Below are positions 4,227 to 29,843 of a stretch of 41,946 bases of DNA, piece after piece. The stretch is from a virus. The notes under the pieces are model-generated. The model did no database searches. It had not been told where the DNA came from and saw only the letters and a list, made by a program, of their open reading frames with translations. The position numbers and the translations under genes were made by a program. The first letter of the stretch is position 1. Each line of letters begins with the position of its first letter. Where the stretch lies: IMG/VR virus record IMGVR_UViG_3300047472_000375, positions 1-41,946 of that record; one strand, given 5' to 3'.

Positions 4227-6539
4227 CTAGCGCACGCCGCTGCGAAGCGCCGCCAGTTCTTCCTCACTCGGTGCGACGCCTGGCGTACCGCCAGCGATTT
4301 CGAGTTTAAGCGGTGCACCGCCTTGCGCCTGCGCACCTGCAGCACCGGAGATACCCGGCATGGTGCGTTCAATGCGCTGCAGCAGCTTAGCCATCGCGGG
4401 CGATCCGTCTTCCAGCTTTGACGCGGCCAGCAGGAAGCGCTTGCCCGGACCGCTCGTCAGCATTGTGCGGGCGATGCCCGTCATCGCTGCGACCTGCCCT
4501 GCCAGCGGAGCATTGAGCGTGGCAGCGCCACCAATGAGCCACGGAATCACGCGCTGCCCAGTCGGCGGGTTCTCCGCATACTGCCCGGCACGCTCGACGT
4601 GGCGCATGAGCCGGGTGAAGCCCTCAATCTCCTGCTTGCCCGGGCCGCGGAAGAAGGCGCCGCGCGCGTCCTTGATCTTCTCCATGGCCAACGCAAACTT
4701 CGCTGGACTGAACACCTGGCGGGTCTCGTCGACCGCCTTTTCCATCGCGTTGGCGACCATGCCGTAGCGCACCGCCGCCTGGCCGCGCGCATCCAGCGCC
4801 CCGAAGAAGTGTTCGGCACGATCGCCTTTGCCCGCCTGCACGAACTTCGTATAGATCTCGTCCGCGTGTGCGTCTTTTATGGCATTGGCCAACTGCCGAT
4901 CCTTGAACGGCACCACGCGCTCCCGATAGAACTTATCTGCCCGCTTCCACGCACTGATCAGGGCCGGGTTGTTGCTGCGGCTGGCGAAGGCGTCCATGTC
5001 GCTCTCCACCGCCGAGCGCACCTGCTGCAGGATGCCCACGCCCTTGCTGCCGGTCAGGGCGTTGCTGCCCTTGTAGTAGTCGGCGATCAGATCGCCCAGG
5101 TCTGAGCGCAGCTGACGCATCGCCGAGTAGGTGTTGCTTGCGGGCTGGGCATCGGATGGCACCAACGACTCCTTCAGCTCCGACAGCAGCTTGATGGTGG
5201 GTTTGTCCGGCAGCTTGGCGGCGCTGGCTTCCTTCAGTGCACGGCGCACGGCCTGTAACGTCTGCGGCACGCCGATGCTGCCGCTGCCGGCGGCTAGACG
5301 CTCGACCTCGCCATACAGGCGATCGGCTCGCTGTCGGGTGCGGAACGCCTGCAGGTTGCCGCTGGCCTGGACGATGCGATTCCAGTCATCGCCCGCGTTG
5401 GCCAGTTCCTGCTTCAGCTCGATCGCCGCCTTGTTGCCACGCGCGGCAGCGGCATCGACTTCAGCGACATGCTGGAACGGGGTCTGCTTCAGTTGCGTTT
5501 GCAGGCGTTCGGTCAGCCCCTCGGCGGCGGCCTTGGTTTCAGCTTGCTGCGCGGCACGGAAGCCGCCAGTGCCGAGCACCGGCACGGACTCCAGCGCGAC
5601 CTCGGTCTTCTTCGGCAGCGCCTTCTGCGTGATGTCGCCATAGCTCAGGCGCACGCCGAAGCGCTCACCCAGTTCCTGCAACTGCTTCGCGGCGGGATCG
5701 ATCACGCCCCTGGCAGTATTGACCGCCTTGCCCAGCACCGGCGACAGCGCTCCTGTCGCGATCGGCACCGCACCACCCAGCGCGGCGCCGGTGCCGAGCT
5801 GCTCGGCCTTGCCCGCAGCGTAGTCGCCACCCAGCACGGGTTGCGTTGCCGCGGTGACCGCGCCCTGTGTCGCGCCGGACACGGCACGGCCGAGCACACC
5901 GCCCGCACGACCAGTCGGCAGTACCGCGCCAGCCACCCGGCCGCCCAGGGCCTGCAACGCCCGCGTGGGGGCGAGATACGGCAGCGCGCTTCCGACCACA
6001 CCCCCAACATCGCCACCGAAGCTACCTTGCGTGCGCTGCTGGTAGTCCTGTTCGCGCTGGCGCAGGGCCGCATCATCGGCAGCGACCGAGTCGTTGAGGT
6101 ACTGGCGCAGGCGTTGCGGCACCGTCTGCGGCTCGGCAGGCTTGCCGGTCACCAGGCCGGACAGGCTCGGGGCCGGCGCATCGACCAGGGCGTTCACACC
6201 CGCACGCGCGCCGTGCTGGAGCAGCTGCGCCAATCCGTGCGGCACGTCCATCACCCGGTGCTGCACGGCATCGAAGTAGTTCTTCAGCACGCCCCAGTCG
6301 CCCTGCTGGTTGCGTTCAATCGCAGTCTGATAGTTCTGCGCGGAACGCTCCGCCGCGGCCTCGCGCTGAGCAGGCGTCATCGCACGACGCTCGGCTTGCG
6401 CCGCCAGTTGCTCGGGGGTGGGCGCCTTCGGCGCCGAGAGATACGCGGCCGGGGCGGCCGCGGTGTCGTCGAAGCGGTCGAAGTAGTTGGCTTCGCTCTG
6501 CGGTGCCGCATCGAACTGGTCGAAGTAGTTGCCTGTCAT
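4227..6539 (-). CDS. Large phage internal virion / DNA ejection protein
   Basis: 770 aa, last gene of the late operon. The N-terminus carries two copies of a short peptide (NYFDQFD at 4-10 and NYFDRFD at 18-24). Next come an Ala/Gln/Arg-rich helical region and small-residue-rich segments (about 180-290: GGVVGSALPYLAPTRALQALGG and similar) that could be membrane-active. A long, mostly helical part follows. Near 675-700 is a hydrophobic Ala/Gly segment (PWLIGGAATLNAPLAGQVAA). Position after a lytic-transglycosylase virion protein and the overall style match the large pilot/ejection proteins of podoviruses, which leave the capsid to line the DNA channel through the envelope. This role is inferred; no catalytic motif is visible. 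The start is 2 bp after the upstream stop. Confidence 0.75.
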   Translation of the reverse strand: MTGNYFDQFDAAPQSEANYFDRFDDTAAAPAAYLSAPKAPTPEQLAAQAERRAMTPAQREAAAERSAQNYQTAIERNQQGDWGVLKNYFDAVQHRVMDVPHGLAQLLQHGARAGVNALVDAPAPSLSGLVTGKPAEPQTVPQRLRQYLNDSVAADDAALRQREQDYQQRTQGSFGGDVGGVVGSALPYLAPTRALQALGGRVAGAVLPTGRAGGVLGRAVSGATQGAVTAATQPVLGGDYAAGKAEQLGTGAALGGAVPIATGALSPVLGKAVNTARGVIDPAAKQLQELGERFGVRLSYGDITQKALPKKTEVALESVPVLGTGGFRAAQQAETKAAAEGLTERLQTQLKQTPFQHVAEVDAAAARGNKAAIELKQELANAGDDWNRIVQASGNLQAFRTRQRADRLYGEVERLAAGSGSIGVPQTLQAVRRALKEASAAKLPDKPTIKLLSELKESLVPSDAQPASNTYSAMRQLRSDLGDLIADYYKGSNALTGSKGVGILQQVRSAVESDMDAFASRSNNPALISAWKRADKFYRERVVPFKDRQLANAIKDAHADEIYTKFVQAGKGDRAEHFFGALDARGQAAVRYGMVANAMEKAVDETRQVFSPAKFALAMEKIKDARGAFFRGPGKQEIEGFTRLMRHVERAGQYAENPPTGQRVIPWLIGGAATLNAPLAGQVAAMTGIARTMLTSGPGKRFLLAASKLEDGSPAMAKLLQRIERTMPGISGAAGAQAQGGAPLKLEIAGGTPGVAPSEEELAALRSGVR

Positions 6540-6541
6540 GA

Positions 6542-8476
6542 TTACTGCCCCAGCAATCGCGCCGCCTGGCCCGCCCCGTACTTCGCATCGAACTGCGCGG
6601 CGAGCGTCGGATCGCGGCGCAGGGCGTCGGCCGCGGCGCCCGGGATGACCGGTCCGTCGCCCGCACTGCGACCGCCACCCTCGCCACCCGGCTCGGCCAG
6701 TTCCGCATAGGCTTTGTCGATGTCGGCGACCAGCTGGTCGATCTCGGCCAACGCCGCGCGGTTGACTTCGGGGTACTTGCTGGACGACGGCAACGGCAGC
6801 GCGGCAATGCGCGCTTCGAAATCAGACTGCGAGCCCAACCCAGGCGTGCGGGTCAACGCCAGCAATTCGCCCTGCAAACCGGCGATGTCGGTCTCCAGCA
6901 TCTGTCCCCGGTTGGTCCAGCCACTCAGATACTGATCCAACGGGCCCGAGTCGGCCAGGACGTTGCCCTGCAGGGACTGACGGATGTTGTCGATGCGCCG
7001 CTTTGCCGCTGCCAGGCGCGGCTGCTTCAAGCGGGCCTCGTGGCGCACCTTGCGCTCGTCGGCGGCTAGTTCTGGCGTCGTCTGCGGTTTACCCGTCAAC
7101 AGGATCGACTGCCGGTCTTCGGCCGACACCGGCACACCCGCCGCTTCCAGTTCTTGCAGCATCTGCCGCCGCTGGGTGACTTCACTCAACTGCGAGGGCT
7201 TCGGCGGCGGCGCACGCTTCACGCCCAACGGCGTCTCCGAGGTGTAGGCCGCTGGCGCGGCCGTCGCGGCGACGCGCTGCGGCACCTGGCGCACGTAGTT
7301 GCGCGTCTCCGCCGGCAAACGAGCGACGGCCGCGGCGCGGTCACCCCCAGCCGCCTGCAGGGCCTGATCCACCCGGCCGGGGCCAGCGTTGTAGGCGGCC
7401 AGCGCGAGGGTCTGATCGCCACCGTAACGCTGCAGCATGGCCTGTAGGTACTCGCGGCCGACGCGGACATTCTCTTCCGGCGAGTTGTCGCGCGCCGGGG
7501 TGATGCCGAAACCGGGATCCCGCGCGGTGTGCGGCATCAACTGCATCAGGCCGCGCGCACCTGCGGCCGAGACCGCATTCGGGTTGCCGCCGGATTCCTG
7601 CTGGATCACCGCGCGGACGAGCTGGTCGAAATCGCCGCCGCCCGCTTGGTCGCCGGCATAGGGCGTCGGGACAGCTGGCGCACCGGTGTAGGCGCCGACG
7701 TCATCGTAGCTTCCGGCCTGCGGGTTCCAGACCTTTTGCACCACATTGTCGCCGGCATAGAACTCCTGCACCGACGGCGCAGCTTGGCGACGCTCCTCCT
7801 GCCGGCCGTAGTACTGCGCCAGCGGATCGACGTTGCCGGCGAACGCCTGCGCCGCCGGCAGGCGCGCGCCCTGGGAGTAGGCGTCGCTGCGGCGACCGGA
7901 TGCATCGGCGTAGTACACGTTACCGGTGGCATCGCGCTGCGCCTGCACCCCGTAACCCAACCCCGCCATGCCCTGATTGGCCAGCGCCGTGCCGAGTTCG
8001 CCACCGAGCGCGCTGCCCAGGTTCAGCAGCTGTTGCCCCGCCTGGCGGCGCTGGCCGAGCACGGCGTCCGACAGGTACGGATTGGCCGCGACTTCGGCCG
8101 GGTCGACGTGGGCACCCACGTACTCGGCGATGTCGGCGTCGGACTGCGCGCCTCGGCGAGTGGCTTCGCTGCGCAGGCGCGCCAGCGTCTGGTCGGCGAC
8201 GACCTTGTCGAGCTGGATGCCGGCCTCGCGGGCACCTCGGCGGGCCGTGTCGACACCGGCGCCAACGTACGCGTCATACGCCCGCGTGCGCGTGTCGGCG
8301 TCGATCGCATGGCCGAGGCGGTTGGCGCTGCTCTCGGCCAGTTGCTCCGGCATGCGGTAGTCGGCGAGCCAGTCGTCGCGGTGGCGCTGCTTCGCCCGGT
8401 AGCTCGACTCCAGCGCATCGTCACGCACCCGGTTGAAATCGCCGGCATAGGCGGCGATGCCCGAATAGCCAGCCAT
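6542..8476 (-). CDS. Virion protein with lytic transglycosylase (SLT) domain
   Basis: 644 aa ejection-type protein that should cut peptidoglycan locally during DNA entry. The start at 8476 has a GAGGG ribosome site; a start at 8512 would overlap the upstream gene. Residues 1-280 are helical with no recognised domain. An SLT/Slt70-like domain spans about 282-400: catalytic Glu294 in QQES, then GARGLMQLMP (306-315), a NVRVGREYL helix and AAYNAGPGRVD (360-370), all hallmark motifs of the family. The C-terminal part is charged, helical and partly Pro-rich. It sits between two other internal virion proteins, as transglycosylase-bearing ejection proteins do in T7-like and related podoviruses. Confidence 0.88.
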   Translation of the reverse strand: MAGYSGIAAYAGDFNRVRDDALESSYRAKQRHRDDWLADYRMPEQLAESSANRLGHAIDADTRTRAYDAYVGAGVDTARRGAREAGIQLDKVVADQTLARLRSEATRRGAQSDADIAEYVGAHVDPAEVAANPYLSDAVLGQRRQAGQQLLNLGSALGGELGTALANQGMAGLGYGVQAQRDATGNVYYADASGRRSDAYSQGARLPAAQAFAGNVDPLAQYYGRQEERRQAAPSVQEFYAGDNVVQKVWNPQAGSYDDVGAYTGAPAVPTPYAGDQAGGGDFDQLVRAVIQQESGGNPNAVSAAGARGLMQLMPHTARDPGFGITPARDNSPEENVRVGREYLQAMLQRYGGDQTLALAAYNAGPGRVDQALQAAGGDRAAAVARLPAETRNYVRQVPQRVAATAAPAAYTSETPLGVKRAPPPKPSQLSEVTQRRQMLQELEAAGVPVSAEDRQSILLTGKPQTTPELAADERKVRHEARLKQPRLAAAKRRIDNIRQSLQGNVLADSGPLDQYLSGWTNRGQMLETDIAGLQGELLALTRTPGLGSQSDFEARIAALPLPSSSKYPEVNRAALAEIDQLVADIDKAYAELAEPGGEGGGRSAGDGPVIPGAAADALRRDPTLAAQFDAKYGAGQAARLLGQ

Positions 8477-8486
8477 GAAAGAGCCC

Positions 8487-9461
8487 TCAGGCGATGGAGC
8501 TGCCGCCCGCAATCATGCGCTGCGTCGCGGCGCGGTTGATCGACAGACCCGGTGCGCCGACGTAGCCGCCGCCCATCGCTGACGACGAAGCACCGAAGCC
8601 CGTCGACATCGGCGCGCCGCCGGACGGCAGGAACGCACCGAGCAGGCCGCCGAAGCTGGACAGGATCGCGCCGTAATACTGGTTGCGCGCTTCCAGTTCG
8701 ATGCTGGTGCCCTGCGCGATGCCCTGGGCGGCGCGGCCGAAGTCGTTGACCGCATCGGCCTTGATACCGCGGCCAATGTTGAACAACTGCAGCTTGCGGT
8801 TGAAGTACTTGTCGCGGCGGTTGTCCTGCCGCTCTTCGAGGAAGCGGCGGACCTTCTCCTTGGCGTCCGCCGTGGCGCGGGCTTCCTCGATCGCGATCTC
8901 GCGCTCACCCGCCAGCACCGCGCCCAGGCAATAGCGGTTGCGGCGACGCTGCAGCTGCTGGCGGGCGATCGTGAACTGCAGGCGCACGTCGGCGACCGCG
9001 CGGTTGGCCTGCGCCTCGATGTCCTCCGTGTACTCCGGGCGCTGACACACGGTGTCGACCGTGGTGTTTTCGCACGGCGCAAAGTGGACGCTGTAGCGAC
9101 CGTACTCCTCGTCGGCAATCGTCTGCTGGCGGTCGGCGATGTCGTACTGCTTATCGGCCGCATCCTCCGCGGCGTCAAACGCCTTGTCAGCCAGGTACGT
9201 CTGCGCTGCCGCGTAGGCCGCCTGCGCGATCGCCCAGTCAGTTCGCCAACTCTCCTGCTCTTCCTGCCACGCGGTGACGTCCTGTTCGTGGCGGGCGCGC
9301 CAGGCGTCGTCGTTGGCCTTGGCCTGCGAAGCCCAGGTGTCGGCATTGGCCTGCTGGTTCAGCCACAGCTGGTTCTGCGCCGCATAGACGCCGTTCTCCA
9401 GGCTGGCCTGCATCGGCATCTGCAGGCCCTGCCAGTTGCTGATGACCACTGCCGAGCCCAT
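8487..9461 (-). CDS. Internal virion protein (T7 gp14-like position)
   Basis: 324 aa. The start at 9461 (MGSAVVISNW) is preceded by an AGGTGA ribosome site; the longer open frame to 9602 lies over the upstream gene. The sequence is strongly helical and rich in Ala, Gln, Asp, Glu and Trp, with heptad-like stretches at about 20-110 and 140-240. A Gly/Ala/Ser-rich segment near 270-305 (GAILSSFGGLLGAFLPSGGA) could insert in membrane. There is no catalytic motif. Size, composition and its place directly before the SLT-bearing protein fit the smallest ejection protein of podoviruses; the homology is inferred from style and synteny. Confidence 0.65.
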   Translation of the reverse strand: MGSAVVISNWQGLQMPMQASLENGVYAAQNQLWLNQQANADTWASQAKANDDAWRARHEQDVTAWQEEQESWRTDWAIAQAAYAAAQTYLADKAFDAAEDAADKQYDIADRQQTIADEEYGRYSVHFAPCENTTVDTVCQRPEYTEDIEAQANRAVADVRLQFTIARQQLQRRRNRYCLGAVLAGEREIAIEEARATADAKEKVRRFLEERQDNRRDKYFNRKLQLFNIGRGIKADAVNDFGRAAQGIAQGTSIELEARNQYYGAILSSFGGLLGAFLPSGGAPMSTGFGASSSAMGGGYVGAPGLSINRAATQRMIAGGSSIA

Positions 9462-9469
9462 AACGTCAC

Positions 9470-9937
9470 CTAAGGTTTCAAGCTCATTACCGTCCCGGCC
9501 TTGGCAAAGCCGAGCTGGGACGTGGCCGCCGCCAAGGCAGCCTCGCTCTCGGAATTCATCAGGAAGAAGCGGACTTCTGAGGCGCCCTGCACCTTCGCCC
9601 ACTCCACGAAAGCACGGATCAGTTCAGTGGCCACGTCGGCACCGCGGTGCTCGGGTGCCACGTACAGCAGGATGTCCTGCGCGAGGGTGCGGCTTTCCAA
9701 CAGGAAGCTGGCCTGCGCGCCTCCAAGGAAACCCGCCGTCACACCGTCCACTTCCGCGACCGCGAAGAACAGCTGCGGGTTGGCGCCCGTTACGGCCGCC
9801 GTCATAGCGCTCAATGCGCGCAGCGTGTCCGGCCTGGCGTTGGCGTCCAGTTCGCGCGTCGCCGCCGGCAGCATCCCGATGGCGTCCTGCAGGTGGCGGT
9901 AGTTGCACTCACCTTGCGCGAAGACCCGCACCACCAT
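9470..9937 (-). CDS. GNAT-fold phage protein (gp13-like acetyltransferase)
   Basis: 155 aa. Shows the GNAT pattern: a core strand AQDILLYVAPEHRG (about residues 88-101) followed by the acetyl-CoA pyrophosphate-binding type sequence HRGADVATELIRAF, then a final strand with LGFAKAGTVMSL. GNAT-like proteins of this size occur beside internal virion genes in T7-type phages (gp13 family), where they help virion assembly. Whether this one acetylates anything is unknown. It lies 8 bp upstream of the internal virion protein start and 6 bp after the preceding small gene, so it is co-transcribed with them. Confidence 0.75.
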   Translation of the reverse strand: MVVRVFAQGECNYRHLQDAIGMLPAATRELDANARPDTLRALSAMTAAVTGANPQLFFAVAEVDGVTAGFLGGAQASFLLESRTLAQDILLYVAPEHRGADVATELIRAFVEWAKVQGASEVRFFLMNSESEAALAAATSQLGFAKAGTVMSLKP

Positions 9938-9943: not shown

Positions 9944-10183
9944 TCAACCGTTCAGTTCGTGCGGCTCAATGAACCGCTCGACCTTGATTTGGTAAACAAG
10001 AAAGATCTCGCGACGAATACCACCGCGATCCTTAACCATGGGGTGACACAAATGATCACGTGTGGCGGGGTCACCCGGCGATAACGTGTAAGACCGGCCC
10101 TGCTTGTAGACCCAAACCCTGGCGACCTCATCGTCACCACGCTTCCCCTCTGCCACGCAGCACAACGTCCGTGCTTTCGACAT
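9944..10183 (-). CDS. Small phage protein of unknown function
   Basis: 79 aa starting MSKARTLCCVAEGKRG, with an AGGAG ribosome site. No domain is recognised; it has mixed charge and a central Arg/Lys-rich part. It is the first gene downstream of the terminator that closes the TonB-receptor gene, and leads into the GNAT and ejection genes with 6-8 bp gaps. No promoter is visible in the 30 bases between that terminator and this start, so how it is transcribed is unclear. Confidence 0.6.
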   Translation of the reverse strand: MSKARTLCCVAEGKRGDDEVARVWVYKQGRSYTLSPGDPATRDHLCHPMVKDRGGIRREIFLVYQIKVERFIEPHELNG

Positions 10184-10214: not shown

Positions 10215-10243
10215 CAGCCAGCCCCGCCGAGCGGGGCTGGCTG
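10215..10243 (-). terminator. Strong intrinsic-type hairpin ending the TonB-receptor gene
   Basis: A 13-bp perfect stem (10215-10227 with 10231-10243) and a three-base loop, beginning 7 bp past the receptor stop codon. On the minus strand it is followed by TGTGTCCG, without a T tract; on the plus strand by GCTTTCATT. The stem is very stable, so pausing or termination is likely, possibly in both directions. It separates the receptor from the downstream ejection genes. Confidence 0.75.
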
Positions 10244-10250
10244 GCTTTCA

Positions 10251-13160
10251 TTAGAACCGGTAGTTCACGCCGGTGTAGAAGAACCGACCAATGTTGTCGT
10301 ACTGCGCACTGCCGAACCCGGTGCCGTACAGGTTGTACGGCGGATCCTTATCGAACAGATTGCGCACGCCCACATACAGGTTGAACCGATCCGTGAAGTC
10401 GTAGCCCAGACGCACGTCGGTGAACGTCATCGACGGCGTCTTGATCGGGTACTGCATATCTGGATCGGACGCATACTGCTCGTTGGTCACCAGAATCTGG
10501 CTGTCGACATAACGGGTGCGCCAACTGGCCTCCCAAGGCCCACGCGTGTAGGTGAGCGTCAGGATGCCCTTCCACTCCGGGTAGCCCAGCACACCACGAT
10601 TGTCGACCGTCTCGTCGGGGAAGTTCTGGAAGGGATAGTCGGTGTACTCCTCCAGGTACGTGCCTTCCAGCTTCGTCATCAGGCTGCCGCCCCACAGGTT
10701 GGCGAACGTGTAGTCGATGCCGAAGTCGATGCCCCGCGCCTTGAGCTTGGAGATGTTCATCGGCAGCACCTCCAGACCGGTGATCGCGTAGCGGTCGGTC
10801 GTGGTGCCGGCGATGTCACGGGTGATGGCATCACAAAACTCGTTGCCAATGCCACCCGCGGCATCGACGCAGCGGTCCGCGAGCTGCTGACCAGAGACGC
10901 TGCTGATGGCGTCCTCGATGTCGATGTCCCAGTAGTCGACCGTAATGCCGAAGCCCGGCAGCGCGGCCGGCGTGAACACCGCGCCGAAGGTGAAGGTCCT
11001 GCTGGTCTCTTCGCTCAGATCCGGATTGCCGCCTTGCAGGCCCCGACGCGTGGAGGTGTCATTGGGCGTCCAGCCCACTGGAATGCCCAGCGCGCTGCAG
11101 TTGGCCTGTCGCAACGCCGGATCGGCGCCGCGGCCGATGTTGGCCGCCGAGCACGGATCGCTGATCGAGAAGAAGTTGACCGACTGCGGGTTGTACAGCT
11201 CACCGATATTGGGCGCGCGCACCGCATTGGAGTAGGTACTGCGCAGGCGCAACGTGTCGTTGAAGGCCCAGTCCAGCCCCGTCTTCCAGCTGAAGGTGCT
11301 GCCCACCGTGGTGTAGTCGGACGCACGACCGGCGATGTCCAGGTTGACGTTCTGGGCGAACGCCATGTCGGCCAGCAGCGGGACGTTGACCTCGGCAAAG
11401 AGTTCCTTGACCGAGTACTCGCCTTTCCGATTCGGGATGGCGTTGAGGAAGGTCAGACCGGCCTGCTGCCGCGAGTCGGTCACCTGCGAGCTGGTCTCCT
11501 TGCGGAACTCAACGCCCGAGGCGAAACCCACGGAACCGGCCGGCATCGCGAACAACTCCGCCTTGGACACGCTGGCCGACACCACCTGCTGGGTCAGGGT
11601 GGTCTGGCTCGGGGTCTGGGTCATGAACCAGCCCACGGCATCGGGCGACACCGCGCCTTCGCCGAAGATGCTGGTCGGGATGCAGCCTTCCAACAGGTTA
11701 CCGCCGGTGTAGGGGTCGGTCGGCCCCACCTTGCCGTCACGGGTGGCCCGACAGACGATGTTGCCGCTGGCATCGAACACCCCATCGATGGAGGCATTGA
11801 ACCGGTCGGTGATCAGGTTGTTGAGGTTGGTCCGGTCCTCCCTGGTGCGGCCGTAGTTGGCACTGGCCTCATAGGACCAGTCGGTACCGAACAGGCCTGA
11901 GAAGCCGGCCACGATGCGCCCGGTGTCGCGCGTGATGTCCTCGCCGCGGAAGCCCATGTCGGTGTTGTTCCGGTTGATGCGAATGCTGCTGAGCTTGCGC
12001 GCGTCCATGAACTGCGCCAGATCCTTGCTGAGGAAGGCGTTGTCACGGCGGATGGTGTAGGCGCCAAACGAGGGGCCGGACGTCGAGTACGCCTTGACCT
12101 TGTTCTGCACCCACTTGCTTTCAACGAAGAACTGGTGGTTTTCGTTGATATCGAAGCTGAAGTTCGCATTGACCGAGCCGGTGCTGTTCTTCGGCTGCAT
12201 CTCGCCGTACTGGTTGGGGTCCAGGTCGTCGCAGTTCGAGCAACCGCTGCGCGTGGTGTCCACCAGGCCGTCAAAGCGCTGTGGTCGGAAGCTGCCATTG
12301 GGATCAAACACGTAGCGATCGCCAACCGTAGCGGTCTTGCCATCCAGATCGAACACGCCACCGGAGGTGTACGTGTAGCCGCTGGCGTCGTGGGTCAGGA
12401 TCGTGCGGGTCTTGGTCGGATCGTTCGGGTCGGTGAGGTAACGCTGCGAATCGCGGCTGAAATGGCGGTCACGCAGGTAGAGCGGATCCTGGTTGGTGAA
12501 GCCCGCGGACAGGATGTACTGGCCGCGACCATCGGCGAGTTGGCCACCGCCGGTCGCGCTGATGGCGCGCTGGTTGAAGTTGCCCTCCTCGGAGTGGCCA
12601 ATCTGTGCGTTGAGCGTGGTCCCCTCATACGATCTCTTGAGGATGAAGTTCACCACGCCGCTGACCGCGTCGGCACCGTAGATGGCCGAGGAGCCACCGG
12701 TGAGGATCTCCACACGCTCGATCATCGCGGCGGGAATCGTGTTGACGTCGACCGCCGAGGTGCCGGCCGAGCTGGCCACATGGCGGCGTCCGTTGACCAG
12801 CACGAGGGTGCGGTCATCGCCCAGGCCACGCAGGTCCAGCAGGTTCAGGCCGGCGGTGCCGATGAAGCGCGTGGAGTTGCCGAGCGAGAACGTGGTCGAC
12901 AGCTGCGGCAGGGTATTGAGGACGTCGCCCAGCGTAATGGCGCCGGTCGCCTTGATGTCTTCGGCGGTCAGCGTGCCCACCGGGGCCGCCGACAGGTAGT
13001 CAACCCGGGGGATACGCGAACCGGTCACCGTGACCGTATCGAGTCGTTTGATATCGGCGTCTTCGCCCGCAGTGACTTCCTCGTTCTGGGCGTGCGCGAT
13101 CGGCGCAGCGGCGGCCATGAGAATGGTGCAGATCGCGCTCGTCAATGTCCTTCTGTACAT
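10251..13160 (-). CDS. TonB-dependent outer-membrane receptor
   Basis: 969 aa, full length. Signal peptide at residues 1-24 (hydrophobic core TSAICTILMAAAAPIAHA). A TonB box-like segment DTVTVTGSRIP lies at 41-51. The plug domain runs about 55-170 with LRGLGDDRTLVLVNGRR and the conserved VERVEILTGGSSAIYGADAVSGVVNFILK region. A 22-strand-type barrel follows, ending in aromatic YTGVNYRF as expected for BAM-assembled barrels. Such receptors take up siderophores, sugars, vitamins or peptides using the TonB-ExbBD motor; the substrate cannot be read from sequence. It is an intact bacterial-style gene placed between phage tail and ejection genes, with its own terminator and a divergent neighbour. 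I infer cargo (moron-like) carried by the prophage; a host fragment joined by rearrangement is the alternative. Confidence 0.95.
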   Translation of the reverse strand: MYRRTLTSAICTILMAAAAPIAHAQNEEVTAGEDADIKRLDTVTVTGSRIPRVDYLSAAPVGTLTAEDIKATGAITLGDVLNTLPQLSTTFSLGNSTRFIGTAGLNLLDLRGLGDDRTLVLVNGRRHVASSAGTSAVDVNTIPAAMIERVEILTGGSSAIYGADAVSGVVNFILKRSYEGTTLNAQIGHSEEGNFNQRAISATGGGQLADGRGQYILSAGFTNQDPLYLRDRHFSRDSQRYLTDPNDPTKTRTILTHDASGYTYTSGGVFDLDGKTATVGDRYVFDPNGSFRPQRFDGLVDTTRSGCSNCDDLDPNQYGEMQPKNSTGSVNANFSFDINENHQFFVESKWVQNKVKAYSTSGPSFGAYTIRRDNAFLSKDLAQFMDARKLSSIRINRNNTDMGFRGEDITRDTGRIVAGFSGLFGTDWSYEASANYGRTREDRTNLNNLITDRFNASIDGVFDASGNIVCRATRDGKVGPTDPYTGGNLLEGCIPTSIFGEGAVSPDAVGWFMTQTPSQTTLTQQVVSASVSKAELFAMPAGSVGFASGVEFRKETSSQVTDSRQQAGLTFLNAIPNRKGEYSVKELFAEVNVPLLADMAFAQNVNLDIAGRASDYTTVGSTFSWKTGLDWAFNDTLRLRSTYSNAVRAPNIGELYNPQSVNFFSISDPCSAANIGRGADPALRQANCSALGIPVGWTPNDTSTRRGLQGGNPDLSEETSRTFTFGAVFTPAALPGFGITVDYWDIDIEDAISSVSGQQLADRCVDAAGGIGNEFCDAITRDIAGTTTDRYAITGLEVLPMNISKLKARGIDFGIDYTFANLWGGSLMTKLEGTYLEEYTDYPFQNFPDETVDNRGVLGYPEWKGILTLTYTRGPWEASWRTRYVDSQILVTNEQYASDPDMQYPIKTPSMTFTDVRLGYDFTDRFNLYVGVRNLFDKDPPYNLYGTGFGSAQYDNIGRFFYTGVNYRF

Positions 13161-13517
13161 CCGTTGTTTCCCTCGTGCGTTTGTCTTGGCGAGCCATCAG
13201 CACGGCCGCCCATGCGAGGGCAGTCCGCGTTTTCGCCAAATCTGAAGTGATGATTCCCTGAGCCCGATTGAGTGATCTCAACCGAGTCCGCTATCACTCG
13301 CTCGCACGGGCAGGAATAGCAATACGAAAAGTCTCAAAGTTTCAGCACACACGGGAGAAATTGTCGTGGTTCGAAACTGATAGTTGCGACACCGCTGTCG
13401 AACAGGCGCTTCGGTACTCATGAATGCCAAAGCGCATTACCATCGACGACGAGAAACGTTCACCCGACGGCGCTGTTCGCCAGTCAAGTTCATCAGCCCC
13501 AAGGAAAGGATTGCCCG
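13161..13517. promoter_or_regulatory. Divergent intergenic region between TonB receptor and membrane protein
   Basis: 357 bases with no supported gene. It must contain the promoters for both divergent genes. TTGAGA appears twice on the minus strand, but neither copy has a good -10 partner at 16-18 bp, so I do not name a promoter. Base composition is lower in G+C (13300-13390) than in the flanking genes, which fits a regulatory region. Ribosome sites are clear at both ends: GAGGG for the receptor and AAGGAAAGGA for the membrane protein. Confidence 0.5.
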
Positions 13518-14024
13518 ATGCGCGACGTCCAACGAACCACCTTCACCATGTATCCCTTGTGGATGGTATGGCTGGGCCGCTTCCTGCTGTATTTCGGGCT
13601 GGTCATGGCCCCCGCAGCCATCGCCTCGTGGTTGGGCGAACAGATTCCCTCGTCGCTGCAGCCGGCGGGAAAGGTGGCGGTCAACGTGGTTCTGCTGCCG
13701 TTGCTGTTCGCCGGTCTCTATTGGCTCCTCTGGCGCGCGGGCTCTCGCGCACAGAACTTCATCTGGCTGGTGGCATTCCTCTTCGGCCTGATGGCAGTCA
13801 TGCAGACGCGGCAAGCGATGGCGACCGGCGACATCAGTCGCTGGGTCGGCGCGCTCCTTTGCACGGTATATACCGTGGGCTATGGCGCACTGGCGCTGTG
13901 GGGCTGGCGTCGCAACCGCCGCAATGAAGAGCACCATTACGCCGCTGCACGGCAGTCGCAGATCGACCTGCATGCCGAAGCCATCTTGCGCGCCGAGGAA
14001 TTGAAGCGGGAACGCGGCGGCTAA
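13518..14024 (+). CDS. Four-helix inner-membrane protein of unknown function
   Basis: 168 aa, ATG preceded by AAGGAAAGGA. Four hydrophobic segments are visible: about 14-40, 53-71, 80-96 and 106-128. An Arg-rich loop follows (WGWRRNRRNEEHH) and then a charged helical cytoplasmic tail (ILRAEELKRERGG). No family is recognised. It is transcribed away from the TonB receptor and converges on the phage tail gene, whose stop is only 14 bp away. It is one of very few plus-strand genes in the late region, so I treat it and the receptor as one cassette. Roles could include modulation of TonB-linked uptake or superinfection exclusion, but nothing in the sequence decides this. Confidence 0.8.
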   Translation: MRDVQRTTFTMYPLWMVWLGRFLLYFGLVMAPAAIASWLGEQIPSSLQPAGKVAVNVVLLPLLFAGLYWLLWRAGSRAQNFIWLVAFLFGLMAVMQTRQAMATGDISRWVGALLCTVYTVGYGALALWGWRRNRRNEEHHYAAARQSQIDLHAEAILRAEELKRERGG

Positions 14025-14038: not shown

Positions 14039-14054
14039 TCACGCGACCGCGTGA
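14039..14054. other. Perfect 7-bp inverted repeat at convergent gene ends
   Basis: TCACGCG, two bases, CGCGTGA. It covers the stop codon of the tail protein gene and lies 14 bp from the stop of the convergent membrane-protein gene. It could slow convergent transcription, but has no T tract on either side. Confidence 0.35.
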
Positions 14055-15691
14055 CTGAGTTCGCGCACCCCCGTGGCGATTGCGATCTCGCGCACGGCCT
14101 GCGCCCCACTGACTTCCACGCTGAACTCGACGTTGCGACTGCTCGACGGCAACCGGAATGCCGCCGAATGCTTCACGCATCGATCCAGCGCGACGCGTCC
14201 ATCGGTGATCCACTGGAACCGCATGCCGGCCGGCGCTGTCGACGGCCATGGGTAGCCGTCCAACGCGACCCGCGCCGCCGCGAAGTTGGCCTGACCCGCG
14301 GCATCGACCTGCTTGCTGCGCCACCGGTACGGCAAGAACTCCGCGGCAGCATCCCATTCGTGGACCACGTTACCGAACGCCAGGTACAGCTTGCCGTCGC
14401 GGGTCGTGTGCAGTGCATTGGTCGTGAGCGTCAGCGGCATCAGCTCGTTGTGTTCGATGCCGTCGTCGACGATGCCATCATGAATGTCGAACAGGAACGC
14501 CGCGGCACAGGTCGCCGCTATGTACTGGCCGTCGACGATGGCGCCAATCATTGTGTGCGGCAGCAGCGCCTGCCAATCGTCTTTTGCGTACCAGGGCCCG
14601 GTTATCAAGGCCATGCGTCGGCCGGACAGCTGCATCAAGCCCGACGGGGTGGCGTACACAGCGCCATCTGGCGCAGCCACAGCAGACTTTGGTGACTCAA
14701 TCGGCGCGGACACTGGGAACCGGAACGCCTGCCGGCAGCACTTGCCGTCCACGCATTCTTCGGCGATCGCATAGGGATGGCCATCGGTCAGCGCATACAG
14801 GGCGCCATTGCTCCACACCAGCGCGCAGACCGTGTCGTCCAGCGCCAGCAGGTAGTCGACCGGCCATGCCTGCGGCTGGTACGGCTCAGAGAACCAAACC
14901 TGCCGCCCAACCGCGCCGGCCAGTACGCCGTCGGGCAGCTGCGTGATGCAATGCAGTCCACCCGGCGGCGGGGTGTAGGTGAGCGATACGTTCGCCTCTG
15001 CCAAGGCATCGCTGGCCATGGCGTCATCGAACGTCTGCGCGACCGGCGGCAGCTCGGCGACGAACAGGTACGAACTCGACGTAGGCGCTGCGGCCTGCGT
15101 GCCATCAACGAACCCTTCCGCCACCCGGTACAGCCGGACCGCGGCGATGTCCCAGTCGGTCGGTGGTGCCGGAATCGTCACCCGGGCGACCGCGCCCTCG
15201 TGCATGTCCAGCAACGGATCGCTGGTCAGCGACGGCGCGCCTTCCTCGCCAAAGGAATTGACGTAGGTGATGACGTAGATCCGGCTGCTGGTGGTCTGGA
15301 TCGGCTTGCTGGCATCCAGCGCCATCGCGCTGGGCCGCTCCGGCACCGGCAGGCCGACACGCTGCCAGACCAGTTCGGTGCCGGCCTCAGCCTGCTCGGC
15401 CACCAATGGATAGTCGGCCACGCCGGTGACGTAGACCCGTTCGCAGGTCGGCAGCCACTCGGCCACATCCACACACGGATCGTCCCAAGTCAGCCAACGG
15501 CACCCGAACCGGTGCATCGTGCGCACGCAGACGTCCGGCGCGGTGTGGACCGGCAACGGCATCCGGAACGGAGCCAGCGCGCCGTGCCACAAGCGCACGT
15601 TCTCGGCCTCGCTCGCCATGTTCCCGCGCAGCAGGGATCGCGCATAACGCGGGGCCACGCCGCCGAAGTTGGCCAGGCGAATGACGGCCAC
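14039..15691 (-). CDS. Phage tail / tubular structural protein (gp12-like)
   Basis: 550 aa. The start MAVIRLANFGGVAPRYARSL and the following NVRLWHGALAPFR resemble the N-termini of podoviral tail proteins in which a short motif (INFxGxxPR) precedes a beta-propeller-like body. The interior has repeated strands around small-residue turns (AAPDGAVYATPSGLMQLSG; TRDGKLYLAFGNVVHEWD), consistent with a tail tube/nozzle protein. It contains at least ten cysteines, many for a virion protein. It is the last tail gene before the TonB cassette, and its start directly follows the Ntn-hydrolase-like gene's stop. The assignment as nozzle is by order and style, not by a diagnostic motif. Confidence 0.7.
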   Translation of the reverse strand: MAVIRLANFGGVAPRYARSLLRGNMASEAENVRLWHGALAPFRMPLPVHTAPDVCVRTMHRFGCRWLTWDDPCVDVAEWLPTCERVYVTGVADYPLVAEQAEAGTELVWQRVGLPVPERPSAMALDASKPIQTTSSRIYVITYVNSFGEEGAPSLTSDPLLDMHEGAVARVTIPAPPTDWDIAAVRLYRVAEGFVDGTQAAAPTSSSYLFVAELPPVAQTFDDAMASDALAEANVSLTYTPPPGGLHCITQLPDGVLAGAVGRQVWFSEPYQPQAWPVDYLLALDDTVCALVWSNGALYALTDGHPYAIAEECVDGKCCRQAFRFPVSAPIESPKSAVAAPDGAVYATPSGLMQLSGRRMALITGPWYAKDDWQALLPHTMIGAIVDGQYIAATCAAAFLFDIHDGIVDDGIEHNELMPLTLTTNALHTTRDGKLYLAFGNVVHEWDAAAEFLPYRWRSKQVDAAGQANFAAARVALDGYPWPSTAPAGMRFQWITDGRVALDRCVKHSAAFRLPSSSRNVEFSVEVSGAQAVREIAIATGVRELSHAVA

Positions 15692-16135
15692 CTAGAACCC
15701 CACCGTATCCACACCCAAGCCGGCGTAGTCGGAACGTTTGATCGCGATCTCGACCGCCCGCCGCGCAGTGGCACCTGCCTCCAGCGCGCCCCAGGCAAAC
15801 TCCTGCCCGATGCCTTGCGCATAGATCCGCTCGCGCATGCACGAGAACGTCAGCCCGCCGCTCAACTCCCACACGCGGCAGCGCTCGTCGATGACCACGC
15901 CGCAGCAGCTGTCCGGCTCGACCTTGAACTCCGCACACTTCGGTGCGGGCGCCTCGCCGCGCAGCCACGGCAACAGCGCATTGCAGAACGGCTGACAGCC
16001 CGTGAGCGCCACCAGCCACACGCCATCATCGGCGCGCGTCACCCGGTACACCTTGCGCACACGACGCCGCACGCCACCCGACCACGAGCAACGATCCGAC
16101 GCCAAGCGCTTTCCGTCCCAGGCAATGGTGGTCAT
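15692..16135 (-). CDS. Ntn-hydrolase (proteasome/HslV-like) phage protein
   Basis: 147 aa. The N-terminus MTTIAWDGKRLASD matches the pattern of phage proteins related to proteasome beta subunits and HslV, where Met removal exposes the nucleophile Thr (TTI). The C-terminal part, GIGQEFAWGALEAGATARRA to GVDTVGF, also fits that family. It overlaps the upstream gene by ATGA (16132-16135), so it is translationally coupled. It has eight cysteines. A protease or other amidohydrolase activity in virion maturation or entry is possible, but the family is largely uncharacterised and activity is not shown. Confidence 0.6.
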   Translation of the reverse strand: MTTIAWDGKRLASDRCSWSGGVRRRVRKVYRVTRADDGVWLVALTGCQPFCNALLPWLRGEAPAPKCAEFKVEPDSCCGVVIDERCRVWELSGGLTFSCMRERIYAQGIGQEFAWGALEAGATARRAVEIAIKRSDYAGLGVDTVGF

Positions 16136-16749
16136 GGCGTCTCCGGTGGACAGCAACCACCACCGCTGTAAACGATATTCGTACCGGATTGGATCGCTAC
16201 GATCTGACCATCGCGCACGGTCACCGTAGCGTTGACGTAGGCACCGTCGACCAGCGGTGTGCTCACTGGTGCCGTCACAATGCACCCCGCGTCGTCCTGC
16301 GTGTACTGAAGATTGCCCGCGCGCCACGACGCACCGGCACAGGCAGGCACGTCCACGGTGACGTTGCAGTCGTTCGCCGTCACCGACACACGCGATGATC
16401 CGGCCTGCACGCCGCACACCGCCGGCTCGATGCCGCCAAGCCCCTGTTGGATGAAGTCGGCCAGGTTCTGCGGTGTCCACGCAAACGACACGCAGGTGCC
16501 CGCCGGCAAGGCAGTCGGCTGGGTGCCCTCCTCGCCGCGGTCGATCGCCACCGCCCCGTCGATCAGGCCGGTGGCCTTCACGACCTCGTGGGCGACGCCG
16601 TCGCCCAGCCACAGGCGGGTGTAATCGCCTTCGTTCGGCAGCGCCTCCGCCAGACGTGCAATGTCACCGGCGGATAACGGCAGGATGGTGTCATCGCGCG
16701 CCAGCTTCGACGCCAGCAGCGCCTTGTAGCCCACGGCTGGCTGGAACAT
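16132..16749 (-). CDS. Cysteine-rich phage structural-region protein, unknown function
   Basis: 205 aa. I prefer the ATG at 16749 (MFQPAVGYKALLASKLARDD), with GAGG nine bases upstream, over an in-frame TTG at 16755. The first 90 residues read as a mixed alpha/beta domain (LWLGDGVAHEVVKATGLIDG). The rest is beta-rich, Thr/Val/Ala-rich and ends SGGGCCPPETP. Seven cysteines. No domain recognised. Likely virion-associated from its place in the tail/connector operon. Confidence 0.7.
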   Translation of the reverse strand: MFQPAVGYKALLASKLARDDTILPLSAGDIARLAEALPNEGDYTRLWLGDGVAHEVVKATGLIDGAVAIDRGEEGTQPTALPAGTCVSFAWTPQNLADFIQQGLGGIEPAVCGVQAGSSRVSVTANDCNVTVDVPACAGASWRAGNLQYTQDDAGCIVTAPVSTPLVDGAYVNATVTVRDGQIVAIQSGTNIVYSGGGCCPPETP

Positions 16750-16751
16750 GG

Positions 16752-17210
16752 TCAACAGCCTCGCGGCACGTCATAGGGCGGCACGTAGATCACCGGTACC
16801 GGCGGACAATCGCATGCCGTGCTGTCCGGCATGCAGCTGGTGCGCATCGCGCACGTGTCGTCCGGCCCTTCGCAGTCCGGGCCGTACTCGACGTTCGTTG
16901 TGCTTATCACCGCGCACGGCTCTTCCAGTTGCAGCAGCACCTCGCCGCACGGCGCGCACTGCGACCACAGCCGTGCGACGTAAAGCCCCGGCGCCAGGCA
17001 GCCGAGCGCGTCGCGCCACGCGAACACCAGTCGACCGTCGTCGTCGACCTCCAGCGGCGCCAGCGTGGTCACCACGTCGTCCTCGCCGGCACGGCATAGT
17101 TCCAGCGGGGCGTTGGCATCGGCCGCAACACCGCCGCACGCACCGTCACTCAGCGCGAACGACGTGCGTGCCACGGAGCGATCAAGGCGAACCACAGGGG
17201 AACGGCGCAT
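16752..17210 (-). CDS. Very cysteine-rich small phage protein
   Basis: 152 aa with twelve cysteines, most in the second half (CAPCGEV, CEGPDDTCAMRTSCM, ACDCPP). The N-terminal half reads as a beta-sandwich-like domain (RLVFAWRDALGCLAPGLYVARLW). No metal-binding family is recognised; the spacing does not match a classical zinc ribbon throughout. It sits between two other Cys-rich genes in the late operon, so a structural role with disulfides or bound metal is possible. Confidence 0.7.
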   Translation of the reverse strand: MRRSPVVRLDRSVARTSFALSDGACGGVAADANAPLELCRAGEDDVVTTLAPLEVDDDGRLVFAWRDALGCLAPGLYVARLWSQCAPCGEVLLQLEEPCAVISTTNVEYGPDCEGPDDTCAMRTSCMPDSTACDCPPVPVIYVPPYDVPRGC

Positions 17211-17218
17211 GGGATGTC

Positions 17219-17836
17219 TCAGACGAAGGCCGGCGCGTGGGCAAATGCAGTGTCGCCCGCGTCACCCTTCAGCGCGGCGACCCGCGCCCGGTGGATGTGG
17301 TCGGCGAAGCTGCGGCTGCGCGTGGCGGCCAGCGCCTGCGAGCTGAACGCATAGCGCGACAACAGGTGCAGCCGCGCCAGCGCGCCGTCCTCGATCGCCT
17401 CCTGCCAGTCATCAAACAGCACGGCATCGACCTCGCAGGCGTCGCGCGCGGGGGCCGCGGCGAAACGAACCTCCAGCGCCTGCGGCCGGTCGATGTCCGG
17501 CGGCCCGGAGATGCGCAGCAACCCCTCATCGATGATGAAGCGCGCGCCACAGTGATCGAAGCAGCAGGTGTTGCGGGCGCCGCGGTAGCGGCACCCGTCG
17601 ATACAGACGTCGTTGACCCGCACCACCGTCTCGCACGGCTCCGGCCAGACCGGATAGCTGCTGACGTTGCGCTGCAGGTCGATAAGCGCCGTGCGGCGCA
17701 GGAGGCTGCTGCGCTGGCAGAAATCGATGGCCGCCTGTCGGACGTAGGCGGTCGCCATGTCCTCCGGCGCATCCGGGCAGGCCCCCATCACGAACGGCAG
17801 GAACACGCTCAACTCAACCCTGGGAATTGGATTCAT
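17219..17836 (-). CDS. Probable head-tail connector / adaptor protein
   Basis: 205 aa, nine cysteines. It starts MNPIPRVELSVFLPFVMGA and contains a helical segment VRQAAIDFCQRSSLLRRTAL; a mostly beta middle; and a long C-terminal helix (DWQEAIEDGALARLHLLSRY). This order resembles connector proteins that join portal and tail. The start overlaps the preceding frameshifted connector gene by 23 bp. Function is inferred from position after the capsid genes and before the tail protein. Confidence 0.6.
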   Translation of the reverse strand: MNPIPRVELSVFLPFVMGACPDAPEDMATAYVRQAAIDFCQRSSLLRRTALIDLQRNVSSYPVWPEPCETVVRVNDVCIDGCRYRGARNTCCFDHCGARFIIDEGLLRISGPPDIDRPQALEVRFAAAPARDACEVDAVLFDDWQEAIEDGALARLHLLSRYAFSSQALAATRSRSFADHIHRARVAALKGDAGDTAFAHAPAFV

Positions 17837-18514
17837 CGCTGCCGCCCGTGCTGCTGCGCTGCCGGTGGTAGCGGTCGTCCGCCCGCTGCGACAAGCCCAA
17901 CATCTCGTAGAAGTGGCGCTGGTGCGTCGCCGACTGCGCCGTGTCGTTGGCGCTGTCCTGGTCCTTGGAGAACGCCCGGTACAGCATCCACTCGATCACC
18001 GCGTTGTGGAACCGGCGATCGATCGGCACCTCATCCCGCAGACCGAACGCGTCCGGCACGCGCGCCAGCGACACGACGATCTGCACGGGTTTGCCAGACG
18101 GTACGGGCGGGTCGACGATGAATGCGCGTGGGTCGTTCGGGTCGAACTGGAAGGCGCTGACGACGTACTCGCCGCTGACGCGCGGGCACGCCAATGGCGC
18201 GAACCACGTGCGCGCCACCTGCGCCGCCTTGATGTCGGTGGGCGCGGGCTGGCCCTGGACACGGCCGTACCGGTCCAGCGTGCCCTCGATCCGAAAAAAC
18301 GCGTCGCCCCTTCCGGCAAGGTCTGGCGGGCACCGGGCTGCAACGGGATCGTCTCGGATTGCGTGAACACGTCAGGGCGCAGCAACGCGATCTGCACCAC
18401 CGCGTCGTTGGCGTACTCCAGCAGCTCCGGCTGCGACCAGCGCGTGTACTCGTAGCCCGGCTCGTAGTCGTTGAGCAGCTGCGCGGCCTCGGCCGCGAGA
18501 TCGGCCGCGGTCAT
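17814..18514 (-). CDS. Phage adaptor protein split by a -1 frameshift at a slippery heptamer
   Basis: Frame 0 begins at 18514 (MTAADLAAEAAQLLNDYEPG, then RWSQPELLEYANDAVVQIALLRPD) and has the look of the phage adaptor family (DUF6682-like). After ATRFF it runs into Arg/Ser-rich nonsense, stopping at 17996. The -1 frame takes over exactly at the T6 tract and continues sensibly (RIEGTLDRYGRVQGQPAPTD, then FHNAVIEWMLYRAFSKDQDS) to 17814. The zero-frame codons at the joint are CGT TTT TTC, so T TTT TTC is a perfect -1 slippery heptamer (plus-strand 18293-18299). Joined product: about 233 aa. Either programmed frameshifting, a lost T, or an assembly error explains it; the long nonsense zero-frame tail argues for the latter two. 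Confidence 0.75.
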
Positions 18515-19017
18515 CGCGGCACCTTACGCACGCGCCGTGACGTCGCTGCGGTCGTGTCGTCTTCGGCGGGCTCGGGCGCGGCGACCCACGTGGACGGTTC
18601 GGCGACGCAGTCGACCGTGTCGTCCGATGCGGACTCGGTGGATGGCTCCGTCAGCGTGCCCTGCAGGATCGCCAGCTGCGCCTCCAGCGCGGCCACCCGC
18701 TCGCGTTCGTCCGCCAGCTGCGCTTCGGTTTCGACCAGGCGCGCGGCCGTGTCGGGCTCACTGACCACCACGCCCGTCAGGGGTGCGGTGTCGGCGCCAC
18801 GGTCCTCGCGCAGGCCCGACAGTACGGTCTCAGCGCCGGTACCGACGCCGGCATCGGTGACGATGTTGCCCACCTGCTCCTGCGGGTTACCGGCCGGGGT
18901 GAAGGTACGCGTGTCGGTGTCGTACCAGCCCGGCACCAATCCCGGCTGGAACGCCAGCGCGGCGTGCGCCGGATACAGGATGCCGTGCGCATCCTGGTAG
19001 ACGAACTGCTTGGCCAT
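18511..19017 (-). CDS. Small virion-region protein with coiled coil
   Basis: 168 aa, start MAKQFVYQDAHGILYPAHAA with a GAGGG ribosome site. The N-terminal 50 residues are compact and aromatic (PGLVPGWYDTDTRTFTP). Residues about 90-120 form a coiled coil (ETEAQLADERERVAALEAQL). The C-terminus is acidic then basic (SRRVRKVPR). It overlaps the next gene by ATGA. Function is unknown; position after the capsid suggests a connector or accessory head protein. Confidence 0.65.
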   Translation of the reverse strand: MAKQFVYQDAHGILYPAHAALAFQPGLVPGWYDTDTRTFTPAGNPQEQVGNIVTDAGVGTGAETVLSGLREDRGADTAPLTGVVVSEPDTAARLVETEAQLADERERVAALEAQLAILQGTLTEPSTESASDDTVDCVAEPSTWVAAPEPAEDDTTAATSRRVRKVPR

Positions 19018-19066
19018 GACAGGCCCTCACGGTTGGCCGGCGCCATCGGCCGGCGGCGTTGTCCAC

Positions 19067-19090
19067 AGCGGGCACAGGGAGGTGCCCGCT
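19067..19090 (-). other. 9-bp perfect hairpin directly after a capsid-region gene
   Basis: AGCGGGCAC and GTGCCCGCT with a six-base loop. On the minus strand it begins at the stop codon of the preceding gene. It lacks a T tract, so it is more likely an RNA-stability or attenuation element limiting expression downstream of the capsid genes than a full terminator. Confidence 0.5.
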
Positions 19091-19623
19091 CAATTGCCCA
19101 ACTGGGGCACCAGCACCATCGGCGAGACCCAGAACCGCAACGCGGACGCCCCGTTGGCCGGGAACGAGGTGAACTCAGCCACCAGGAAGTCGCTGACCTT
19201 GAACCACAGCGGCGTGAGCATCTTCGCGTCCGAGTTCACTGTGGCGGCGTTGACGTTGCTCACCAGTGTCTGCCCGCCGGTCAGCAGTTTCAGGTCGAAC
19301 GTCACCCCCGCCTCGGGTTCTTCCACGCCCCAGGCGACGCCGAGCAGCAGGGCCTGCGCCGGCAGGGCCGACAGCGTGACCAGGTCGTTCGCCTGCAGCG
19401 GATGGCCGCCTGCGGCCGCACGTTCCAGGTACTGCTGCAGGCCGGCCTGCCGGCGCCCGTCCTTCTGGCTGAAATCCAGCAGCCGGGTGATGCCGAACGC
19501 GATCGGCTCCTTGTGCGCGGCCGGGTGCAGGCGTTCGATCGGTGCGGGCGTGGCAGCCGGGTACAGCGCCTGGTCGGCGTTGCGCGTACCGGCGCCGCCG
19601 TGGTGCAGGTAGTGGAGGGTCAT
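19090..19623 (-). CDS. Head-associated protein of unknown function (possible decoration protein)
   Basis: 176 aa from ATG 19623 (MTLHYLHHGGAGTRNADQAL), with GAGGA upstream. The longer open frame to 19665 overlaps the capsid gene. The protein is beta-rich with hydrophobic strands (LLLGVAWGV; FLVAEFTSFPANGASALRFW). No domain recognised. It lies 10 bp after the major capsid gene, where decoration or stabilising proteins are often encoded; this is the only basis for that suggestion. Confidence 0.65.
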   Translation of the reverse strand: MTLHYLHHGGAGTRNADQALYPAATPAPIERLHPAAHKEPIAFGITRLLDFSQKDGRRQAGLQQYLERAAAGGHPLQANDLVTLSALPAQALLLGVAWGVEEPEAGVTFDLKLLTGGQTLVSNVNAATVNSDAKMLTPLWFKVSDFLVAEFTSFPANGASALRFWVSPMVLVPQLGN

Positions 19624-19633
19624 GACGGCATCC

Positions 19634-20569: not shown

Positions 20570-20578
20570 GGGTTACTC

Positions 20579-21670: not shown

Positions 21671-21758
21671 AGAGCCTCCAGCGCGCCCGGCACGCGGGCA
21701 CGACGAAGCGCGGGTCGGCGAAGGCCGATCCGGGCGGTGACGGTGGGATCAGGCGCGC

Positions 21759-21971
21759 TTACCGGCGCGGGGTCAGGTACTCGATCAGGTCGGCCAGCGT
21801 GCGGATCTCGCCCTGCACGCGGCGCACATGGATCAGGTCATCGGCTCGCGCGCAGTCGTGCTGCGCACGCGTCAGGTTCTGTTGCAGCCAGCCCAGCATC
21901 AGGTGCCAGGGCACACCCAGCCGCTGCAGGTTCGCGATGGCCTCGCGCTGCTGGGCGTCGGGTGCTTTCAC
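21759..21971 (-). CDS. Small helical phage protein (translationally coupled)
   Basis: 70 aa from GTG 21971, one base after the stop of the tiny upstream gene (TGA C GTG). A longer start at 22034 is possible but would overlap that gene by 62 bp. Sequence is helical: QQREAIANLQRLGVPWHLML, then LIHVRRVQGEIRTLADLIEY. No family recognised. It lies between the tail-fibre gene and the scaffold gene. Confidence 0.55.
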   Translation of the reverse strand: MKAPDAQQREAIANLQRLGVPWHLMLGWLQQNLTRAQHDCARADDLIHVRRVQGEIRTLADLIEYLTPRR

Positions 21972-21972
21972 G

Positions 21973-22125
21973 TCAACCGCCGTTGCAGGCGCAGGTGCGC
22001 ACCTTCGGGCCCACGCGCGGGCCGACGCCGGCACGGGGCGTGGCCTGCATACGTTTCGCGGCGGGGTTCTTGACGACTTTGGGCACGACCTTCGGCCGCG
22101 GTCGGGACACGGAAGGCTTCTTCAT
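21973..22125 (-). CDS. Tiny basic protein, 50 aa
   Basis: Starts MKKPSVSRPRPKVVPKVVKN and ends CACNGG. It overlaps the fibre gene stop by ATGA (22122-22125), the same coupling seen at several other junctions here, which supports it being real despite its size. Rich in Lys, Arg, Pro and Val; PKVV occurs twice, at 11-14 and 15-18 (VPKVV). Could bind DNA or nucleic acid in the head, or be a short accessory peptide; no family is known to me. Confidence 0.5.
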   Translation of the reverse strand: MKKPSVSRPRPKVVPKVVKNPAAKRMQATPRAGVGPRVGPKVRTCACNGG

Positions 22126-23069: not shown

Positions 23070-23079
23070 CGTCTAGCCC

Positions 23080-23661: not shown

Positions 23662-23674
23662 GGGGCACCTCGGG

Positions 23675-24277: not shown

Positions 24278-24278
24278 C

Positions 24279-25244: not shown

Positions 25245-25253
25245 GGCGTCACC

Positions 25254-25951: not shown

Positions 25952-25958
25952 ATCAGCC

Positions 25959-27953: not shown

Positions 27954-27963
27954 GGTGGACTCC

Positions 27964-29827: not shown

Positions 29828-29843
29828 AGCGAAGTTCCTGCGA

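Follow-up and report, generated by a model that had tools for sequence, protein, structure and literature searches.

A TonB-dependent receptor gene of host origin between virion genes of a podovirus-type prophage, and its possible role as a moron

The receptor locus

The IMG/VR entry IMGVR_UViG_3300047472_000375 consists of one virus record, 41,946 bp long, and its whole length is here called the window. A prophage of the short-tailed-phage type occupies the window from 4.2 to about 41 kb, and between two of its virion genes lies a cassette with a gene for a TonB-dependent receptor (TBDR) and a divergent gene for a small membrane protein. The receptor gene is found at 10251..13160 on the minus strand and encodes 969 amino acids (aa). 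The second gene, at 13518..14024 on the plus strand, encodes a predicted four-helix membrane protein of 168 aa, here called M168; it is convergent with the gene on the right flank of the cassette, which encodes an internal virion protein (IVP) at 14039..15691 on the minus strand, the two stop codons being 14 bp apart. On the left flank is a GNAT acetyltransferase gene of the virion cluster (9470..9937, minus strand), assigned by family match and by comparison with relatives. A sequence-only reading of this DNA had described a complete 969-aa receptor and a divergent membrane protein between virion genes, and the intact open reading frames (ORFs), the Pfam matches and the homologs all agree with that; a chance origin of the two frames is not an issue. 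The same reading called the right-hand neighbour a tail protein, which is close enough, the match being to the phrog_511 internal virion protein (3e-92). It also placed ejection genes from 10183 leftward. These genes are present, but the conserved cluster resumes at 9937, with GNAT, and not at 10183. Between GNAT and the hairpin that follows the receptor gene lies an orphan ORF of 79 aa (9944..10183, minus strand) with a low G+C of 56%, no family match and no match in the relatives, which either belongs to the insertion or was acquired as a phage gene.

The receptor frame is free of internal stops from the signal peptide (about residues 1-24) through a TonB-box-like TVTVTGSR, the plug and the barrel to the terminal phenylalanine of ...GVNYRF. 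The signal peptide (MYRRTLTSAICTILMAAAAPIAHAQ), the TonB-box-like stretch LDTVTVTGSR and the terminal NYRF were recognised by eye and not with a predictor. Pfam finds the Plug domain (PF07715, 1.4e-20) and the TonB barrel (PF00593, 2.4e-39), both above cut-off; it gives TonB receptor domains only, with no match to the Lom/Ail family of small barrels. A structure model of moderate confidence (mean pLDDT 65) resembles the solved TonB receptors PfeA, BtuB and FepA, with E-values down to 4e-35. The nearest solved folds are thus those of catecholate-siderophore and cobalamin receptors, a match at the level of the fold that does not predict a substrate. NCBIfam did not point to a substrate either, as 27 models matched and the best 25 of the 27 were all below cut-off, and in the ortholog neighbourhoods that were compared the neighbouring genes are not conserved. 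In a search for a riboswitch or other RNA, the single match was to a miRNA model, below its gathering score, and was taken as chance.

The insertion site in related phages

With an alignment query (A3), 80 relatives were gathered from viral contigs; scans of viral contigs with the receptor or the phrog_511 protein as a single query recovered no relatives. The closest three (L017, L018 and L019) share 61-67% identity with the window in IVP and 82-87% in the major capsid protein (MCP), and they are collinear with it on either side of the cassette. In these three the gap between IVP and GNAT is 55, 172 and 78 bp, respectively, and their complete records contain no TBDR. More widely, no TBDR was found within the fetched flanks of the relatives (0/80), and where GNAT could be recognised the gap was 55-961 bp in 42 of 45 cases, against 4.1 kb in the window. 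The other three have gaps of 2.3-4.9 kb that hold, as judged by eye, lysis-like genes (L050), a long open frame (L039) or fibre-like genes (L055). The order of IVP and GNAT is also kept in the phages Skulduggery, DC1, Parlo and Itty13, with one small gene between them. Because the flanking phage genes are adjacent in the relatives and 4.1 kb apart in the window, the cassette is a clean insertion, gained as a discrete unit by an otherwise collinear phage cluster, and does not come from rearranged phage DNA. The idea of a self-contained, moron-like cargo between virion genes is borne out by this adjacency, seen in the closest three and in dozens of distant relatives. Comparison at the same point in relatives had been proposed as the way to expose a host rearrangement of the phage genes or a bad join, and with the cassette absent and its flanks contiguous neither was borne out. 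That the relatives lack the cassette suggests that it is dispensable for the phage.

A bad join of another kind deserves mention, namely an assembly chimera in which receptor DNA from a host contig was misjoined into the prophage. A second copy of the junction was not found, as such an error would predict. It would however take two independent joins exactly flanking a collinear junction, each close to gene ends, and the receptor resembles the phage genes in G+C content at third codon positions (GC3), unlike its closest chromosomal copy. A chimera is therefore very improbable.

The border between IVP and GNAT may be a place where cargo does little harm. In two close relatives a terminator-like hairpin with a T-run stands immediately before GNAT. 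No clear repeats or insertion sequences flank the cassette. A phage attachment site at this junction was considered and set aside, as it would place IVP and GNAT at opposite ends of the prophage. In viral contigs with other TBDR genes (L148-L150, 26-29% identity) these genes were treated as host flank, because they lie near the end of the record, beside host-like, integrase or transposase genes. In one of them (L149:1157-3445), a TBDR-like ORF lies by a transposase-like ORF near the contig end and adjoins phage genes, and it is possibly host flank.

Host origin of the receptor

The receptor has its closest homolog on the chromosome of the genome G503, which belongs to the same family as G278; the two proteins share 76% aa identity over their full length. 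Receptor members with 44-50% identity are found in 33 further genomes of this family. The receptor derives from a host gene family, and by protein resemblance the host itself is probably gammaproteobacterial and Lysobacterales-like.

The similarity is not limited to the coding region. DNA homology to G503 spans positions 10217 to 13044 of the window, and this includes a G+C-rich hairpin directly beyond the 3' end of the receptor gene (10215..10243, stem of 13 bp), which has a T-rich tail on the plus strand only and no T-run on the receptor-strand side. Downstream of the hairpin there is no significant match to G503. On the other side, the 180 bp upstream of the receptor (13161..13340, minus strand) align to the G503 upstream region with a local score of 27, whereas 5000 random host pieces gave a maximum of 23.5 and none (0/5000) reached that score; this stretch appears to be a captured promoter and 5' untranslated region. 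As gene, about 180 bp of upstream DNA and 3' hairpin are all common to the window and G503, positions 10217-13340 or so appear to have been taken up as one unit, that is as a whole host transcription unit.

The two copies have diverged under what looks like sequence constraint, with dN 0.168, dS 1.20 and dN/dS 0.14. The test is coarse, and it gives no hint that selection was relaxed on the phage branch, because the distance to outgroup receptors is no greater for the receptor than for the G503 copy, with no increase in rate. GC3 is 0.86 in the receptor and 0.83-0.89 in the phage genes, against 0.72 in the G503 gene, so that the receptor is not a recent copy of that gene.

From these observations the preferred reading, held at a probability of about 0.58, is that a podovirus-type prophage took up a host transcription unit at the IVP/GNAT junction, where it works as a moron. 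The unit of upstream region, receptor gene and hairpin would have been inserted between IVP and GNAT, beside the host-type M168. The receptor would be expressed in the lysogen under its own upstream region, captured along with it, and exported to the outer membrane, where it could act as an extra or variant TonB-driven importer; it would have no role in the virion, changing the cell rather than the virus. Late transcription may also run through the receptor gene to GNAT, because the receptor gene and the late genes are read from one strand and no T-run follows the hairpin in that reading direction. M168 lies on the other strand and would have its own, separate expression. On this reading the receptor is expected to be expressed, functional and beneficial, and to travel with a phage that forms particles.

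Should the receptor indeed be produced in lysogens, a temperate phage would provide its host with a new outer-membrane importer and so change its nutrition. Its susceptibility would change too, as phages and bacteriocins enter cells by way of TonB receptors. A fuller version is tentative: the importer would be working cargo for lysogenic conversion, M168 would be its functional partner, and from the slot of the Lom protein discussed below the prophage would alter the receptors that the lysogen offers to nutrients, bacteriocins and phages. Relatives with an empty site, together with a chromosomal homolog that has the upstream region in common, make both the capture and its effect directly testable.

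The divergent membrane gene

M168 is predicted to be all-helical with four helices, from a low-confidence single-sequence model (pTM 0.38) that is too poor for a fold search. It is supported as a gene by two homologs with 55-58% identity. These were found only in the chromosome of G557, which belongs to the same genus as G503, and none was found in phages or viral contigs. The two homologs (L141:1337-1837 and L138:16332-16805) are 45 kb apart in G557. One of them adjoins a GT2 glycosyltransferase gene and a gene for a large membrane protein. G557 also has a two-partner secretion gene, tpsB, whose product is 71% identical to the TpsB encoded at the left end of the window, and this gene lies 3.6 kb from that same M168 homolog. 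The M168 family may be tied to variable surface-protein islands. A role as holin was also considered, from one Pfam match at E 0.003 that is below cut-off; the strand, opposite to that of the late genes, and the chromosomal homologs speak against it.

Small membrane proteins with several helices include a number of exclusion proteins, and M168 resembles them in this respect. TBDRs often serve as receptors for phages, and FhuA is a target of phage proteins, Cor among them (PMC11436027). It could be imagined, then, that the receptor, with M168, serves superinfection exclusion or receptor manipulation by diverting TonB-ExbBD, by acting as a decoy or by blocking entry at the inner membrane. M168 however has no PADLOC, PHROG, NCBIfam or above-cut-off Pfam match, so none to a known exclusion or defence family in these collections, and its homologs are chromosomal, one of them beside glycosyltransferase genes. 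The hosts of this family are moreover already rich in TBDRs, with 20-77 candidate stretches per genome with a match, and because of this one more receptor would hardly drain TonB. Exclusion is thus an unlikely explanation. The sequence-only reading had further proposed that the phage might supply its own receptor to neighbouring cells, and the observations favour neither this nor superinfection exclusion.

The remaining prophage and its completeness

Family searches identified genes for the terminase large subunit, portal, MCP, phrog_511 IVP, GNAT and an SLT-domain internal protein, and further for a primase, a Cas4-like exonuclease and a Sak4-like protein. The rest of the morphogenesis cluster lies to the right of IVP on the minus strand (15692..29968) and includes MCP (19634-20569), portal (25959-27953), terminase large subunit (27964-29418) and tail genes. 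To the left of the cassette, and on the same strand, are the virion and DNA-ejection genes (4227..9602, by family matches and relatives). They comprise a virion-cluster gene (8487-9602, family match), the SLT-domain internal virion protein (6542-8512, family match) and, at the end of the late cluster, a 770-aa protein (4227-6539), which stands where the relatives L142 and L145 have a giant protein of ~2,000 aa and lysis genes. The first 3.9 kb of the window hold a non-phage two-partner secretion locus, identified by family match: a TpsB/ShlB gene and a gene for an FHA-type protein cut by the record end (1-3835). This pair directly adjoins the last late gene of the prophage, with the junction at 3836-4226. 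It is probably host flank, with the junction as a putative attachment site. At 31672-32940 there is a fusion of a ParB-N domain and a DNA methyltransferase, beside small plus-strand genes (DUF6900, DUF3489), and at the right end of the record (40920-41431) are helix-turn-helix genes of the excisionase type. Searches with MCP in two sets of whole genomes (321 and 297) found no sister prophage.

Several observations weigh against the moron interpretation. The relatives have a giant late gene, holin-like genes and an endolysin gene downstream of the SLT gene, and the window is without these; no lysis genes were recognised in the window and no integrase was found in the record. No second phage with this cassette came up in the searches, and no match to the sigma-70 consensus was found upstream of the receptor gene. 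The G+C content is 63.3% in the cassette against 67.5% in the phage, but the dinucleotide signature of the cassette falls within the phage range, so that composition does not mark it as foreign.

With giant gene, lysis genes and integrase absent from the record, the prophage may be truncated or cryptic and perhaps unable to spread. If it is cryptic, the cassette may be host DNA that was recombined in place, and the lysogen would have gained or shuffled a receptor and M168 with no phage-linked role or mobility. The absence of the cassette from all relatives examined would fit this, as would the adjoining TpsB/FHA locus, since the association of M168 and TpsB in G557 makes local shuffling of host genes conceivable. 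On the other hand, all large structural genes of the prophage are open and match their families, and the point of insertion coincides exactly with a junction between genes at which other phages, too, carry extra genes. It should also be considered that lysis genes may be present in a form that was not recognised and that an integrase could lie past the record end, beside the helix-turn-helix genes. A cryptic prophage is accordingly a possible but rather doubtful account, and uptake of a host unit as a moron is still the reading preferred here.

Comparison with known systems

The collinear short-tailed phages DC1, Skulduggery, Itty13 and Parlo, both temperate and lytic, have genes for portal, MCP, phrog_511 protein, GNAT and virion proteins in the same order as the window. 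They differ from it in lacking a TBDR at the junction, and a giant DarB-like gene, which the window is without, is present in DC1, Skulduggery and Parlo. The chromosomal receptor of G503 is the nearest likeness to the cassette itself, through its full-length similarity and the common upstream region and hairpin; it differs in its lower GC3 and in its setting, beside fimbrial usher/chaperone and sensor-kinase genes.

The sequence-only reading knew of no case of an outer-membrane importer in a virion cluster. The case is not without precedent in kind, as TBDR genes in phages are already on record. As an example, a SusC TBDR gene is listed in the marine megaphage Mar_Mega_1 (PMC9723777), and a TBDR is listed among Acinetobacter prophage genes (PMC6193963), each read as a possible uptake function. 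The passages on these two genes do not place either one in a cassette flanked by virion genes, with relatives that have an empty site. In the record of the Acinetobacter prophage Ab105-3phi, the TBDR is found at the record edge, in the midst of what appear to be host genes. A TBDR at the IVP/GNAT spot is present in no relative examined.

The closest parallel in position is Lom, the classic outer-membrane moron of lambdoid and Stx phages. In the Stx phage ST2-8624 (L014:13623-16632), a tail fibre gene, two small genes and lom follow a phrog_511-type virion gene, so that a host-directed outer-membrane protein gene is found in the late or virion region in the same slot as the cassette. Lom is small (244 aa in ST2-8624) and is encoded on the late-gene strand among late genes, whereas the TonB importer of the window is 969 aa long, comes with an upstream region of its own and is accompanied by a divergent membrane gene. 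Expression of lom in phage Phi24B is similar in stable lysogens and in induced ones (PMC3342100). The position in common suggests that the slot after the phrog_511 virion gene is moron-like, and that it may recur as a site for outer-membrane cargo in short-tailed temperate phages.

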